Shown here piece after piece: positions 112 through 47,152 of a stretch of DNA of 47,152 nucleotides. The stretch is from NCBI GenBank assembly GCA_012516175.1, contig JAAYWZ010000106.1:1-47152 (forward strand), written 5' to 3'. Both the position numbers and the translations under genes were made by a program. The stretch comes from Bacilli bacterium. Its GTDB lineage: Bacteria; Bacillota_I; Bacilli_A; Haloplasmatales; Haloplasmataceae. Numbering within the stretch: the first letter of the stretch is position 1; every line of letters starts with the position of its first letter. The notes below the pieces were generated by a model, which had not been told where the DNA came from, did no database searches, and was given only the letters and a program-made list of their open reading frames with translations.

Positions 112-523
112 GATCACCATTAAGGATATTTTTTAGAATAATTGGTTTATTATTAACAACAATTATCTTGTATGTTGTAAGCAGTTTATTAAAGTCTAAA
201 AGATGCGTGCGGATGAGAATTTCAGTTATATTACTCAGATTAATAATCCTAATTCTTTTATAGATTAGACCTTTTTGATAAATTAAGCGTTCATTAGTAA
301 TATAAACATAATGAAAATTAATGCGATAGAAGTCAAATAAAGTTTTTATTAAGAGTGGAAAGAAAAGAAAGATGAGTAGGAAGGAAAGTAAAGAGTATTG
401 TTGGAATTGTTGGGATAAAGATAGAATAGCGATAAGAAGAATAATATCTATAAGAAAGATGCGTTTCGCAAACTTTACTTTTTCTATGACTTTCTCGTTA
501 GGTAAAAGCGGTAGATTTTTCAT
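56..523 (-). CDS. PH-like (bPH_2/YdbT-type) membrane protein; 3' end disrupted by inverted repeat
   Basis: The frame starts at an ATG with a good SD (aaggag, 6 bases upstream). Residues about 20-65 form two hydrophobic helices, followed by a short beta-rich region containing YVYITNERLIYQKG, which resembles bacterial PH (bPH_2) domains of small two-helix membrane proteins. Function is unknown. From about residue 138 the frame crosses base 112 and enters the inverted copy of its own 5' region, so the last 17 or so residues (VGRKVKSIVGIVG...) are antisense translation and unlikely to be native. The true C-terminus is not in this window. It is divergent from the DUF4397 gene. Confidence 0.6.
   Translation of the reverse strand: MKNLPLLPNEKVIEKVKFAKRIFLIDIILLIAILSLSQQFQQYSLLSFLLIFLFFPLLIKTLFDFYRINFHYVYITNERLIYQKGLIYKRIRIINLSNITEILIRTHLLDFNKLLTTYKIIVVNNKPIILKNILNGDRVGRKVKSIVGIVGIKIE
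374..484. repeat. Right arm of the 111-bp inverted repeat
   Basis: This is the exact partner of bases 1-111. It encodes, on the minus strand, roughly residues 14-50 of the PH-like protein, including its first membrane segment, so this copy is probably the genuine one. Confidence 0.9.
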
Positions 524-1379: not shown

Positions 1380-1464
1380 GTATATTTTATTTACATATAT
1401 ACTATGTTTTGATAGGATAATAGACGTATACTTTTGGGAAATTCAGGAAAGGTTAGGTGGAGTG

Positions 1465-2400
1465 ATGATCGTTAAAGTGGAAAATGTTTCAAAGACCTAC
1501 AAAAACGGTGTAAAAGCCCTCCAAAACTTAAGTTTTGAGGTAAGGGAAGGGGAAATCTTTGGACTTCTAGGACCAAATGGTAGTGGCAAAACAACTTCCA
1601 TCAATTGTATCTTATCCCTACTAAAATATGAAGCAGGAAATATTGAAATCTTTGGCGAAAGTATGACACCAGAACGTTATGACCTTAAAGCCCAAATTGG
1701 TTATGTTCCCCAACAAGTCGCAGTATTTAATGAACTAACCGTCGAAGAAAATATTGATTACTTTTGTGGGTTATATGTAAAGGACAAACAAAAACGAAAA
1801 TCTTTAGTTGACGAAGCAATTGACTTTGTTTCGTTAAATGATTATCGGAAGTTTTATCCGAAAAAGCTATCTGGCGGTTTATTAAGAAGATTAAATATCG
1901 CATGTGGAATTGCTCATAAACCACGGTTAATCATTCTCGATGAACCAACAGTAGCTGTTGACCCCCAAAGTCGGAATAAGATTTTAGAAGGAATTGTAAA
2001 ACTAAATAAACAAGGTGCAACTATTGTTTATACTTCCCATTACATGGAAGAGGTAGAACAAATCTGTAGTTACATTGTAATTATGGATAAAGGACAAGTT
2101 GTCAGTCATGGGACGAAAGAAAAGCTTAAAGCAATGATAAATTTAGGTGAAACCATCGAGATTACATTACCTAATCGTAACGAAGCATATCTTGATTTAT
2201 TTAGACAACTACCTAATGTTTTAGATTGTTTCTATAAAGACCGCATCTTAGTTGTTAAGAGCGGTAAAGGTCAAACTAATATCCCGAATGTTTTACAACT
2301 TATGAATGAACACGATATTAAATATGAAACTATTTATTCTTCACTTCCAACTTTAAATGATGTGTTCCTTGAAATTACTGGAAAGGAACTACGAGACTAA
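1465..2400 (+). CDS. ABC transporter ATP-binding protein (ABC-2 exporter type)
   Basis: Cytoplasmic ATPase that powers the two permeases encoded next. The 311-residue product shows Walker A GPNGSGKTT, Q-loop region YVPQQ, an ABC signature LSGGLLRR, Walker B LIILDEP, a D-loop and the H-loop histidine in YTSHYMEE. The 75 or so residues after the nucleotide-binding domain form the C-terminal extension common in exporters related to DrrA/NatA. The frame is open to a TTG at 1378, but that lies in the preceding terminator; ATG 1465 has the SD aggtggag and begins MIVKVENVSK, as expected for the family. The substrate cannot be read from sequence: drug, lantibiotic, Na+ or lipid are all possible. Confidence 0.93.
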   Translation: MIVKVENVSKTYKNGVKALQNLSFEVREGEIFGLLGPNGSGKTTSINCILSLLKYEAGNIEIFGESMTPERYDLKAQIGYVPQQVAVFNELTVEENIDYFCGLYVKDKQKRKSLVDEAIDFVSLNDYRKFYPKKLSGGLLRRLNIACGIAHKPRLIILDEPTVAVDPQSRNKILEGIVKLNKQGATIVYTSHYMEEVEQICSYIVIMDKGQVVSHGTKEKLKAMINLGETIEITLPNRNEAYLDLFRQLPNVLDCFYKDRILVVKSGKGQTNIPNVLQLMNEHDIKYETIYSSLPTLNDVFLEITGKELRD

Positions 2401-4705: not shown

Positions 4706-4787
4706 GTGTATAATCAATATACTTTTTCTAAATATATTGATGTAAAGAAAATATTTAATGGAAAGATAAGTATGGAAGTAAAAATTA

Positions 4788-4813
4788 AAAAACAGCGACT
4801 TAACGCTGTTTTT
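4788..4813 (+). terminator. Hairpin with T tract in the gap before uvrA
   Basis: aaaaacagcg (4788-4797) pairs with cgctgttttt (4804-4813), loop acttaa. It has terminator form, but the T run is directly followed by ggggg and an SD-ATG unit, so it could also be an attenuator for what follows. Confidence 0.55.
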
Positions 4814-4852
4814 GGGGGAGATAAATGTTTAAAAAAGAGTTTAAGGGATAAG

Positions 4853-4874
4853 TATGAGTTTGTTTGAGGGATTT
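4853..4874 (+). repeat. Direct repeat copy 1 (22 bp)
   Basis: Identical to 4904-4925. Each copy contains an ATG, reads MSLFEGF, and is preceded by a G-rich SD. Confidence 0.8.
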
Positions 4875-4988
4875 AATTTTATGAGTGGTTATAGGGGGGT
4901 AAATATGAGTTTGTTTGAGGGATTTGATTATGAGATTTTGAAAGGGATAATATATGAGAAACGACTTTTAAAAAGGGTGTTTTCCTAA
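4854..4988 (+). CDS. Possible 44-residue small protein with internal repeat
   Basis: An ATG with SD aaggga (5 bases upstream) opens a 44-codon frame ending in TAA. It contains MSLFEGF twice, 17 codons apart, and a basic C-terminus (EKRLLKRVFS). A second tiny frame (MFKKEFKG) with SD gggggag ends 2 bases before this ATG. No family is recognised. It may be a genuine small protein, a leader peptide array, or a remnant of tandem duplication. Confidence 0.25.
   Translation: MSLFEGFNFMSGYRGVNMSLFEGFDYEILKGIIYEKRLLKRVFS
4904..4925 (+). repeat. Direct repeat copy 2 (22 bp)
   Basis: Identical to 4853-4874 and offset by 51 bp, which is exactly 17 codons, so the reading frame is kept between copies. 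Confidence 0.8.
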
Positions 4989-5160
4989 CACCATGAGAAA
5001 TTATAATATGTTAGACATAATTCGTCAACTATTATATATTGTGAAAACGTTTTTTAATTTTATGATAGTGTTTTCATCTAATATTTTAACAATTATTTAG
5101 TGTTATTTAGCGAAAATATCTTCTTTTCAAGCAAAAAACAAACAAAAGTTTGAAAATATG

Positions 5161-43208: not shown

Positions 43209-44330
43209 ATGAATGAACGATTAAATAACTTAACCTTACATACCCTTCGCCAATACCGAAAACTAATTGAATCATCACCAAATGGTATTGATTTGACGGT
43301 TGGCGAAGGGCATTTCCACGCCCCTTTTAATGCGAAATTAGGTGTTTATGAAGCCCTTCTTATGAATCAAACCAAATATAGTACCATTAGTGGTGAAGAG
43401 GATTTACGGAAGAAATATGTTAGTAAATATTATCCTCAATATAGTCATGATGAAGTTATCATTACCAATGGTGCTACGCAAGGTGTCTTTATTTCTCTTA
43501 TGTCATTAATTAATAGTAATCAAGATGAAGTAATTGTGTTAGCTCCTTATTATCCTAGTTATGTGCAAATAATAACTCTATTAGGTGCAAAGCCGATTAT
43601 TATTGATACAGCAAGTGATAACTTTAAGATCACCGTTAACAAACTGAAAGAGCATATTACACCTAATACAGTGGGTTTAATTATCAATGAACCATGTAAT
43701 CCTACGGGTATAACATATTCTTTAGAGGAAAAGAGTGAATTACTCAAACTTTTTAAGAAAAAGGATTTATATATCATCGTTGATGAAGTATATCGTGCTT
43801 ACACTAATGAGGATCATGTATCCTTCACTGAACTCATGGATTTAGATTTAAAAGAGAAGTTTATCTTTATTAATAGTTTATCAAAATCACATCTAATGAC
43901 TGGTTTTAGAATTGGTTTTGTCTTAAGTAGTAAGAAGATAATAAATAACTTACATAAGTTAAATTGTTTGATGATTGCGTCTTTATCGAAACTCCTACAA
44001 GAAGGGGCTAAAAATGCACTTGACGATGATTATTATCCCAATTTTGTGCGTAAATATTATTTAAATAACACTCGCTATCTTCAAGATGAACTTAATGAGT
44101 TAAATATTGATTATGTTAAGGGTAATGGGGGTTACTATGTTTTTATAAGGACGGATAAGTTAGGGTTAGATGATGAGGGTTTAGCAAAAATCTTAAGTGA
44201 GAAATATCAGATTGCGGTGGTGCCTGGTAGGATCTTTGGTGAAGAGTATAATCATTATATAAGAGTTTCTTGTTGTCGGGATATCCAAGATATTATACGC
44301 TTTATTGGAGTTTTACGAGAAATCAAATAA
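43209..44330 (+). CDS. Class I/II PLP-dependent aminotransferase
   Basis: The 373-residue fold-type I aminotransferase has ITNGATQGVF (PLP phosphate region), NEPCNPTG, the PLP-pyridine Asp in VDEVYRAY, the Schiff-base Lys in NSLSKSHLMTGFRIGF, and a C-terminal Arg in YIRVSCC for the substrate carboxylate. This places it in the AspB/PatA-like group; the amino donor is not determined. It begins 2 bases after the YdcC-like gene, in a position where Bacillus has alr, but it is not a racemase. Confidence 0.92.
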   Translation: MNERLNNLTLHTLRQYRKLIESSPNGIDLTVGEGHFHAPFNAKLGVYEALLMNQTKYSTISGEEDLRKKYVSKYYPQYSHDEVIITNGATQGVFISLMSLINSNQDEVIVLAPYYPSYVQIITLLGAKPIIIDTASDNFKITVNKLKEHITPNTVGLIINEPCNPTGITYSLEEKSELLKLFKKKDLYIIVDEVYRAYTNEDHVSFTELMDLDLKEKFIFINSLSKSHLMTGFRIGFVLSSKKIINNLHKLNCLMIASLSKLLQEGAKNALDDDYYPNFVRKYYLNNTRYLQDELNELNIDYVKGNGGYYVFIRTDKLGLDDEGLAKILSEKYQIAVVPGRIFGEEYNHYIRVSCCRDIQDIIRFIGVLREIK

Positions 44331-44368: not shown

Positions 44369-44398
44369 TTGGTGAAAAAATACACTTATTGTTATAAT
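44369..44398 (+). promoter_or_regulatory. Upstream promoter (P1) of the candidate small RNA region
   Basis: TTGGTG (44369-44374), 18-base spacer, TATAAT (44393-44398) with an extended TGT. Confidence 0.45.
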
Positions 44399-44419
44399 AT
44401 CGTTTTTTTATCAAAATGC

Positions 44420-44448
44420 TTAACAAAAAGAAAAGTCTATGTTATAAT
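44420..44448 (+). promoter_or_regulatory. Promoter (P2) of the candidate small RNA
   Basis: TTAACA (44420-44425), 17-base spacer, TATAAT (44443-44448) with an extended TGT. Predicted start is near 44455, just before the first hairpin. Confidence 0.65.
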
Positions 44449-44454
44449 TTTCGT

Positions 44455-44609
44455 GTAGCACTACAAGAGTAGTGTTACCGCAAAAATATTATTTTGCACC
44501 CCCATATACCCTTTTCATAATAACCCCTAATATTGGGTCGTGGGTTAATACCCACGACCCCCCATTCAATTGGGCACTAAAAGTTAGAGTAATGAATCTA
44601 ACTTTTTTT
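44455..44609 (+). ncRNA. Candidate structured small RNA with C-rich single-stranded stretches
   Basis: A transcript of about 155 nt bounded by a good promoter and an intrinsic terminator, with no plausible ORF. Predicted hairpins: 44456-44477 (9 bp, loop aaga), 44480-44497 (6 bp), 44535-44560 (10-bp GC-rich stem gggtcgtggg/cccacgaccc, loop ttaata) and the terminator. Between them lie unpaired C runs: accccc (44498-44503), accc (44509-44511 area), aacccc (44522-44527) and acccccc (44557-44563). C-rich loops in Gram-positive small RNAs such as RsaE/RoxS pair with SD sequences. I do not recognise it as 6S, SRP, tmRNA or RNase P RNA. A leader of tex is an alternative, but the terminator argues for an independent RNA. 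Confidence 0.6.
44579..44609 (+). terminator. Terminator of the candidate small RNA
   Basis: aaagttaga (44580-44588) pairs with tctaacttt (44597-44605), loop gtaatgaa, followed by T. Confidence 0.8.
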
Positions 44610-44705
44610 ATTTATAGAGAGCTAACTAATTTAATATACTAAATCTCGAAAAAATATGTTAGAATAAGTTAGTATGAATGCTTTATTCAGATTGAGGAGG
44701 ATATA

Positions 44706-46898
44706 ATGGCAGAAGTTGTTTTTAATCAAGATTTAATTGTGAAGATTGCCAAAGATCTAAACATTAAGCCAATTCAGGTAGAAAAAGTGTTGGAACTTTT
44801 GGCAGATAATAATACCGTGCCATTTATCGCACGTTATCGAAAAGAAGTAACAGGTGCATTGGATGAAGAGAAGATTAGGGAAATATCAAAAGAGTATGAA
44901 TATCAACTCAACTTGTTACAACGTAAAGATGATGTCATTAGATTAATTGCGGAAAAAGGTAAACTAACAGACGAGTTAAGAGATAAAATCTTGAAATGTG
45001 AAAAACTTGCAGAAATCGAAGATATTTATCGTCCTTATAAAGAAAAGAAAAAGACACGGGCTACAGAGGCAATAGCGAAAGGATTAGAACCTTTAGCACA
45101 TACATTATTATCATTCCCTAAGGAAATCGATATTCTAGCGGAAGCACAAAAATACATTAATCCTGAACATGGTGTAAATGATATTAATGAGGCTTTACAA
45201 GGTGCGATGGATATTATCGCCGAAATAGTAAGTGATGATGCAGACATTAGAAAATTTGTTAAAGATGTCATTTTCCATGAAGGAGTTATCCAATCTAAAG
45301 TTAAAGATGAGACTCTAGATGAACGTAAGGTTTATGAAATGTATTATGATTATCAAGAACCAATAAGTAAGATTGTCTCACATCGCATTCTCGCGATTAA
45401 TCGTGGTGAAAACGAAAAAGTCTTACGTGTTTCTCTAGTTGAACCTAAAGAGAAAATACTTAACTTTATTTATAATAAAATGATTAAAGATGATAAATCT
45501 CCTGTTACTGAATATGTAATGATGGCATGTGATGATGGCTATAAACGCTTGATTAAACCATCAGTAGAACGGGAGATTAGAGCTGAGTTAAAAGAAAAAG
45601 CAGAGGAACAGGCAATTACGATATTCTCGGAAAATCTTCGTAAGCTGTTACTGCAACCACCGATGAAAGAAAAAATTGTATTAGGTATTGACCCAGCTTA
45701 TCGGACAGGTTGTAAATATGCGGTGGTTGATGGTACGGGAAAACTATTAACTAAAGGTGTGATTTATCCGCATGAACGTTATGTGGGCGAGGAAGTAAAT
45801 GATGAACGTGTGCAAGAAGCAAGACGCGAAATCATTAAAGTTGTTGACGATTATAATGTTGATATTATTGCGATCGGCAATGGTACAGCTTCCCGTGAAA
45901 CTGAGGAATTTGTCATAAGTGTAATCAATAACCTTAAACGCGATGTATCATATATTATAGTTAGTGAAGCAGGAGCCAGTGTATATTCAGCCTCAGAGCT
46001 TGCGAAAGAAGAGTTTCCTGATTTACATGTTGAGGAACGTTCGGCAGTATCAATTGCGCGTAGACTTCAAGATCCTTTATCAGAATTAGTCAAGATTGAT
46101 CCTAAATCCATTGGCGTTGGCCAGTATCAACATGATGTTAATCAAACAAAACTGGCAGAGACTTTACAATTTGTGGTTGAAACCACAGTTAACCGCGTTG
46201 GTGTTAATGTCAATACTGCCAGTGAAGCATTATTAAAATATGTATCTGGTTTAAATACCCAAGTCGCAAGAAATATTGTGCAATATCGGAATGAACATGG
46301 TAAGTTTAAATCGAGAGAAGAACTCAAGAATGTAAGCCGTTTTGGTGCTAAAGCTTATGAGCAAGCTATTGGGTTTTTAAGAATTGTTGATGGTGTGCAA
46401 CCTTTAGATAAAACAGGGATTCATCCAGAAAATTACGAAAATACGATGAAGATACTCAAACATCTTGAATGCACTGTAAATGATTTAGGTAGAGAAAAAC
46501 TAATTGACAAAATTAGTAATGCTGATTGCAAAGAATTAATGCATATTACTAATTTAGGTGAGCATACTTTAAATGATATCCTCGATGCTTTAGTAGCACC
46601 AAATCGAGATCCACGTGATGATTTACCTAAACCATTATTAAAGCGTGGCGTTATGCGTTTAGAAGACCTTCATGTTGGTATGGAACTCCAAGGAACAGTG
46701 CGCAATGTTGTGGATTTTGGTGCTTTCGTTGATTGTGGTGTTAAAGAAGATGGTTTAGTACATCGTTCTAAACTTAGTAAACGGTATATTAAACACCCAA
46801 TGGAAGTAGTAAATGTTGGAGATATTGTGACAGTTTATGTTGAAAGTATTGATTTATTACGAAGAAGATTGTCACTTACGATGATTAAACCAGAATAA
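44706..46898 (+). CDS. tex: Tex family RNA-binding transcription accessory protein
   Basis: Conserved cytoplasmic nucleic-acid-binding protein (homologue of eukaryotic Spt6). The 730-residue product shows the N-terminal HTH-like region with NNTVPFIARYRKEVTGALDE (split signature), a YqgF/RNase H-like domain (VLGIDPAYRTGCKYAVVD, about 322-450), tandem helix-hairpin-helix motifs (VNVNTASEALLKYVSGL and FKSREELKNV, about 500-570) and a C-terminal S1 domain (about 655-725; LQGTVRNVVDFGAFVDCG). The SD is gaggagg. Its promoter is not clear. Confidence 0.97.
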   Translation: MAEVVFNQDLIVKIAKDLNIKPIQVEKVLELLADNNTVPFIARYRKEVTGALDEEKIREISKEYEYQLNLLQRKDDVIRLIAEKGKLTDELRDKILKCEKLAEIEDIYRPYKEKKKTRATEAIAKGLEPLAHTLLSFPKEIDILAEAQKYINPEHGVNDINEALQGAMDIIAEIVSDDADIRKFVKDVIFHEGVIQSKVKDETLDERKVYEMYYDYQEPISKIVSHRILAINRGENEKVLRVSLVEPKEKILNFIYNKMIKDDKSPVTEYVMMACDDGYKRLIKPSVEREIRAELKEKAEEQAITIFSENLRKLLLQPPMKEKIVLGIDPAYRTGCKYAVVDGTGKLLTKGVIYPHERYVGEEVNDERVQEARREIIKVVDDYNVDIIAIGNGTASRETEEFVISVINNLKRDVSYIIVSEAGASVYSASELAKEEFPDLHVEERSAVSIARRLQDPLSELVKIDPKSIGVGQYQHDVNQTKLAETLQFVVETTVNRVGVNVNTASEALLKYVSGLNTQVARNIVQYRNEHGKFKSREELKNVSRFGAKAYEQAIGFLRIVDGVQPLDKTGIHPENYENTMKILKHLECTVNDLGREKLIDKISNADCKELMHITNLGEHTLNDILDALVAPNRDPRDDLPKPLLKRGVMRLEDLHVGMELQGTVRNVVDFGAFVDCGVKEDGLVHRSKLSKRYIKHPMEVVNVGDIVTVYVESIDLLRRRLSLTMIKPE

Positions 46899-46982: not shown

Positions 46983-47075
46983 GGAGTAATACTCAAGAGG
47001 CTGAAGAGGCGCCCCTGCTAAGGGTGTAGGTCGGGGAAACCCGGCGCGAGGGTTCAAATCCCTCTTACTCCGCCA
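46983..47075 (+). tRNA. tRNA-Ser(GCU)
   Basis: Acceptor ggagtaa pairs with ttactcc, with discriminator G and encoded CCA. The anticodon stem cgccc/gggtg holds the loop ctgctaa with anticodon GCT at 47017-47019. A long variable arm (taggtcggggaaacccggcgc region) marks a class II tRNA, as expected for serine. The T loop gttcaaat is present. Confidence 0.97.
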
Positions 47076-47083
47076 TTTTATAT

Positions 47084-47152
47084 GCCGACTTAGCTCAATC
47101 GGTAGAGCAACTGACTTGTAATCAGTAGGTTACGGGTTCAATTCCTGTAGTC
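47084..47152 (+). tRNA. tRNA-Thr(UGU), 3' end cut by the window
   Basis: It begins with acceptor strand gccgact, D loop with agctcaatcggtagagca, anticodon stem actga/tcagt with loop cttgtaa and anticodon TGT at 47117-47119, and T arm gggttcaattcct. The sequence ends inside the 3' acceptor strand. It follows tRNA-Ser by 8 bases and shares its promoter, so a larger tRNA cluster probably continues. Confidence 0.93.

Follow-up and report, generated by a model that had tools for sequence, protein, structure and literature searches.

The window analysed here, a 47,152-nt stretch of DNA, comes from a member of the Haloplasmataceae, a family placed near the Mollicutes that includes the contractile bacterium Haloplasma and for which no small RNA work was found in the open-access literature searched. 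The gap between an aminotransferase-like gene and tex, names that were given to the flanking genes in an earlier sequence-only reading of this DNA and that fit their translations by eye, holds a predicted small RNA (sRNA) gene (Table 1). Comparison with relatives establishes this locus as a conserved, structured and strand-defined element, bounded by a conserved predicted promoter and terminator. Beyond tex, two tRNA genes lie at the end of the window (46983-47152), the last one cut by the contig end.

Table 1. Predicted features of the tex-linked sRNA locus, its flanks and the second C-rich sRNA, with positions in the window
Feature	Position	Strand	Evidence or remark
Upstream gene, aminotransferase-like	43209..44330	+	ORF; orthologues adjoin the sRNA in relatives; flank, outside the RNA
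Conserved box TTTATCAAAATGCTTAACAAA, overlapping the -35	44407..44427	+	Conserved at 7 tex-linked loci
sRNA promoter TTAACA-17-TATAAT with extended TG	44420..44448	+	11/12 consensus; layout shared by 8/8 copies
sRNA transcript, ~155 nt, ends approximate	44455..44611	+	Fold z -9.8; covariation; homologues in 7 genomes, one of which has two copies
Hairpin 1, 10 bp	44455..44478	+	All cells (100%) pair; double-sided changes at 4 pairs; several G-U variants
Hairpin 2, 6 bp, almost unchanged between copies	44480..44497	+	Fold and alignment
52-nt block (hairpin 2 and most of the linker)	44480..44531	+	Identical in 7 genomes
Single-stranded C-rich linker, 37 nt, proposed seed region	44498..44534	+	Open in both the MFE and the consensus fold; excess of complementary 8-mers at start regions
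Hairpin 3, GC-rich, 11 bp here	44535..44560	+	Fold and alignment
Hairpin 4, small CCC...GGG stem	44561..44574	+	Fold and alignment
Intrinsic terminator hairpin and U-tract	44579..44613	+	Fold; equivalent terminators of different sequence in relatives
Downstream gene, tex	44706..46898	+	ORF; flank; near the sRNA in 7/7 tex-holding genomes
Second C-rich sRNA (hairpin 4976-4992, linker 4814-4965, terminator 4780-4813)	4780..4993	-	In all 8 genomes
Second sRNA promoter TTGACG-17-TATAAT	5000..5028	-	Same layout in every genome inspected
Two cre-like sites (TGAAAACACTATCA, AAAACGTTTTCA) preceding the second sRNA	5042..5076	-	One or both recur in most copies

The promoter consists of a -35 element (TTAACA, 44420-44425), a 17-nt spacer and a -10 element (TATAAT, 44443-44448) preceded by the extended TG (TGnTATAAT); it is kept in all eight copies of the element, with a single -10 base change (TATACT) in the G002b copy. 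Two tandem extended -10 promoters had been proposed, and it is the downstream one that is conserved. Promoter-like letters are indeed present further upstream (TTGGTG at 44369 and TGTTATAAT, ending at 44398), but they have no counterpart in other genomes and the tandem arrangement is thus unsupported as a feature. The conserved box that overlaps the -35 element may be a regulator site or an upstream promoter element; a matrix search of about 1 Mb of sampled sequence gave no further convincing site for it, and no regulon.

Downstream of this promoter, the predicted order of elements is hairpin 1, hairpin 2, an unpaired linker with three C runs (5'-ACCCCCAUAUACCCUUUUCAUAAUAACCCCUAAUAUU-3'), hairpin 3, hairpin 4 and the terminator. 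The fold of 44455-44610 reaches -55.2 kcal/mol against -24.3 +/- 3.2 for shuffled sequences. The hairpins and the U-tract terminator lie where they had been proposed, and the length of about 155 nt agrees; four hairpins precede the terminator, however, where three had been named, and the GC-rich stem has 11 bp, not 10. Similarly, three of the four C runs placed in or beside single-stranded parts fall within the unpaired linker, but the predicted structure places the fourth (acccccc, 44557-44563) within the stems of hairpins 3 and 4.

This structure is well supported by the alignment, in which 95% of cells pair, compared with 40-52% when the partners are slid. The suggested covariation check came out in its favour: the score is 0.207 versus 0.136 for shuffled alignments (0 of 500 as high), a control that related sequences without structure can nevertheless pass, and both partners have changed in six pairs, of which four are the compensatory changes of hairpin 1, found there alongside G-U changes. 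The slid-partner control and the alternative terminator sequences, which vary between genomes while the promoter/terminator layout stays, point the same way. Read from the opposite strand, the G-U variants of hairpin 1 would turn into A-C mismatches, so the plus strand is the RNA.

The element was found only within the family. BLASTN recovered it from six of the seven other Haloplasmataceae genomes examined, and a covariance model built from the eight copies and searched in a sample of 198 genomes of the class scored 125-143 bits in seven genomes and 91 bits for a second copy in G002, with no match in genomes outside the family. In total, seven of eight Haloplasmataceae genomes carry the element, each time close to tex; the one without it, G001, is a draft assembly that also lacks tex, so that this absence is uninformative. 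The seven tex-linked copies are identical over 52 consecutive nucleotides, whereas the fourfold-degenerate sites of tex are only 28-53% identical in the same genomes; conservation and covariation span six genera. The second G002 copy has diverged and lies beside a recombinase-like gene (G002:C61, L013, about 1400-1650, minus strand), and it retains 31 consecutive columns. A short stretch, CCTTTTCATAATGACCCCTAATAAG, following TATAAT in G004:C93 (L240, about 395-430, minus strand) may be a third RNA of this kind or a degenerate one. The exact core matched Haloplasmataceae records only among GTDB contigs, including Haloplasma contractile and Inordinaticella fortuita, and gave no match in viral contigs. 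Near matches to the core or its pattern in other Bacilli are mostly complements of gene starts, on the opposite strand; these matches in other genomes of the class illustrate what the linker appears to mimic.

Conservation, covariation, the conserved promoter and terminator and the lack of a known family together bear out the proposal of a new small RNA. In the Rfam search no family reached threshold for either RNA, and the model of 6S, the family singled out beforehand, gave no match; 6S RNA forms one long imperfect hairpin with a central bubble, unlike the four separate hairpins and open linker predicted here. Among the closest known systems are the streptococcal csRNAs (Cia-dependent small RNAs), whose unpaired linker is complementary to the ribosome binding site (RBS) and AUG and whose CiaR-controlled promoters carry the CiaR box, a TTTAAG-N5-TTTAAG repeat (PMC8186281). 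The tex-linked sRNA shares with csRNAs the plan of a hairpin, an unpaired linker and a hairpin/terminator, a linker in which a C-rich run comes after the letters UUUUCAUAAUAA, and an unpaired stretch complementary to RBS/AUG, the complements of which are enriched at predicted starts. It differs from them by its larger size, its four hairpins and 52-nt invariant block, and its lineage and locus. The csRNA model (RF02379), with a cut-off of 57 bits, matches it weakly: the copy of this window scores 21.8 bits (E 1.4) and that of G007 25.2 bits (E 0.16); the second sRNA scores 22.8 bits and its G005 copy gives no match. No CiaR repeat occurs between 44380 and 44455, where the conserved box is instead TTTATCAAAATGCTTAACAAA. 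With its score below threshold and the CiaR box missing from this region, the tex-linked sRNA is not assigned to the csRNAs.

RoxS/RsaE of Bacillus and Staphylococcus has several C-rich regions, four in the case of RoxS (PMC5419742), which pair with G-rich Shine-Dalgarno sequences (SDs) and block translation; C runs are present in the tex-linked sRNA too. Sequence, structure and promoter are different in the tex-linked sRNA, and it is not counted as an RsaE member because the RsaE model gave no match at E <= 10. LhrC of Listeria carries three redundant CU-rich UCCC sites in one sRNA that block SD sequences (PMC4132741); these sites are in loops and linker, whereas the tex-linked sRNA has its three C runs together in a single unpaired linker, which extends over the AUG as well, and no LhrC match was found in Rfam. 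An independent promoter and terminator, absence of coding and an intergenic position are features that this RNA has in common with trans-acting sRNAs in general.

The complement of the linker, AAUAUUAGGGGUUAUUAUGAAAAGGGUAUAUGGGGGU, reads as a start context made up of an SD, a spacer, an AUG and AAA, with further G runs. Its relation to translation starts was evaluated on 797 predicted start regions, taken mostly from an 800-kb sample of G007, with the window and pieces of G000. Linker-complementary 8-mers occur in 93 of the 797 start regions and in 29 of 797 coding regions; linkers shuffled with their dinucleotide content kept give 47.5 +/- 11.5 at starts (0 of 300 as high), and the reversed linker gives 50. 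Matches of 9 nt are likewise in excess (34 versus 13.8 +/- 5.5; 1 of 300 shuffles), and for contiguous matches of at least 10 nt the excess over these 797 predicted starts is not significant. Coverage by linker complements is highest around the start codon. Mean duplex energy at starts is -12.2 compared with -11.3 +/- 0.4 for shuffled linkers, and the difference between starts and coding regions is weakly better than that of shuffles (7 of 51). The linker thus shows excess complementarity to start regions, and the 8- and 9-mer excess, in weaker agreement with the duplex energies, suggests that it is tuned to start contexts generally. The sequence-only reading had described the SD sites of the genome as very G-rich; this holds for a minority, a G run of at least four lying upstream of 81 of the 797 sampled predicted starts.

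For individual targets, searches of eight genomes by pattern (GGGGTTATTATGAAAAGGG, AGGGGTTATTATG, AAAGGGTATATGGGGGTG and GGGGTTATTATGAAA) revealed no cross-genus orthologous set among the matches listed; the matches examined were mostly ordinary gene starts, three of them, again among the matches listed, being common only within genus g1. The 797 predicted starts were also ranked by duplex energy to give a list of top candidates. The strongest candidate is a gene of unknown function with a AGGGGUUAUUAUGGA start context, restricted to genus g1; both g1 genomes have tgAGGGGTTATTATGGA, while the other genera have different start contexts in the eight genomes compared. A candidate lineage-specific target is a gene of unknown function (G000:C143, L261, and G001:C135, L260) with the start context AGGGGTTATTATGGA, whose strong complementarity to the linker is seen in genus g1 only. 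Target prediction, which had been suggested as a check, gave enrichment at starts and, among the matches listed, no target conserved across genera.

The C run at 44557-44563 had been paired, in the earlier proposal, with ggggggt at 4894-4900, in what was then viewed as an SD-ATG array. The match exists literally, but what looks like an array is no leader of an mRNA. It is the complementary strand of the second C-rich sRNA, about 40 kb from the tex-linked one, and the two stretches match because both RNAs appear antisense to the same kind of site. A coding interpretation of 4800-4990 as a 44-aa ORF was rejected; a protein search with this ORF led to homologous DNA in five genomes, in three of which the frames are broken, and promoter and terminator are on the minus strand. 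The second sRNA was found with a sequence model in all eight Haloplasmataceae genomes, with two copies each in G005 and G006, and seven matches outside the family, at about 16-21 bits, are weak and unconvincing. Its 152-nt linker is built of CAU...CCC modules such as CAUAUUUACCCCCC, CAUACUUAUCCC and CAUUUAUCUCCCCC, which number about 3-7 per copy. The two RNAs belong to the same bacterial family and are alike in having a strong promoter, a 5' hairpin, an unpaired C-rich linker and a terminator; there is no evident overall sequence similarity between them, and the second has more modules, in variable number, and cre-like sites upstream. These sites (TGAAAACACTATCA, AAAACGYTTTCA), which resemble the cre consensus, precede most copies and suggest possible control by CcpA. 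The start complementarity of the second linker is no higher than that of its shuffled versions over the 797 predicted starts, so that a function for this RNA is proposed from its architecture. A wider reading, in which two unrelated family-wide "anti-start" RNAs with tandem anti-SD and anti-AUG modules would act as broad translation dampers on G-rich-start mRNAs and not as regulators of few targets, the second possibly under carbon catabolite control, is speculative and rather unlikely.

Several other explanations of the tex-linked element deserve consideration. The most substantial of them, although improbable, is a conserved RNA whose linker mainly partners a protein or the ribosome, for example by standing in for the 3' end of 16S rRNA (as decoy or mimic) or by serving as a platform for an RNA-binding protein: 52 substitution-free nucleotides exceed what seed pairing to a few targets usually needs, and the eight genomes yielded no conserved mRNA target among the matches listed. 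The linker, however, is more than a CCUCC-like sequence and also spans the second codon, the AUG and the spacer, start regions match its complements more often than those of shuffles with the same dinucleotide content, and neither 6S nor any other protein-binding RNA in Rfam matches. A cis-acting tex leader, that is, a riboswitch or attenuator whose terminator would keep RNA polymerase from entering tex until a ligand or protein intervened, is harder still to defend. The sRNA is close to tex and in the same orientation in six of seven genomes, and a conserved single-stranded core followed by a terminator resembles a leader; yet in G004 another gene lies directly downstream (a predicted D-aminoacylase, named by eye from sequence), the second G002 copy adjoins other genes, the terminator stem has no evident antiterminator partner and is not conserved in sequence, and start-site complementarity explains the conserved linker.

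There is very little to recommend a short coding sequence on the minus strand, AGGGG-TTATT-ATG AAA AGG GTA TAT GGG GGT GCA AAA TAA, which has a good SD and a 9-codon peptide, MKRVYGGAK. Its presence in all seven tex-linked copies follows from the invariance of the DNA; neither the third codon positions nor the flanks vary any more than the remainder, the peptide is altered by the loss of one base in the second copy of G002, and the promoter, the covarying G-U-containing hairpins and the terminator are all on the plus strand. That the promoter-like, hairpin and C-rich letters are functionless products of chance is scarcely credible: scanning this region for consensus promoters does not by itself score higher than shuffled sequence, but conservation and covariation across six genera already refute it.

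The tex-linked locus is therefore best read, with reasonable confidence, as a stand-alone, trans-acting antisense sRNA that would block translation initiation in a csRNA/RoxS-like mode and would found a new family; we infer from sequence comparison its transcription, action in trans and repressive effect. An RNA of about 155 nt would start at a dedicated promoter and stop at a dedicated terminator, and stable hairpins at both ends would present the 37-nt unpaired linker. Each linker C run could mask a G-rich SD, and UUUUCAUAAUAA could pair across the second codon, the AUG and the spacer. The sRNA would probably bind selected mRNAs with G-rich SDs and block 30S binding, which in turn may lower translation and mRNA stability. 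The idea that C-rich parts block SDs is in this respect favoured by the enrichment of linker complements at starts, but the seed named for it, the paired C run acting on the array, is less likely than the invariant unpaired linker.

Since the linker is the complement of ribosome start sites, the sRNA probably turns off the synthesis of proteins. Its seed and targets are directly testable by mutation thanks to the 52-nt invariant block and, if the interpretation is true, two start-antisense C-rich RNAs would mean that control of the csRNA/RoxS type reaches into a new bacterial branch.
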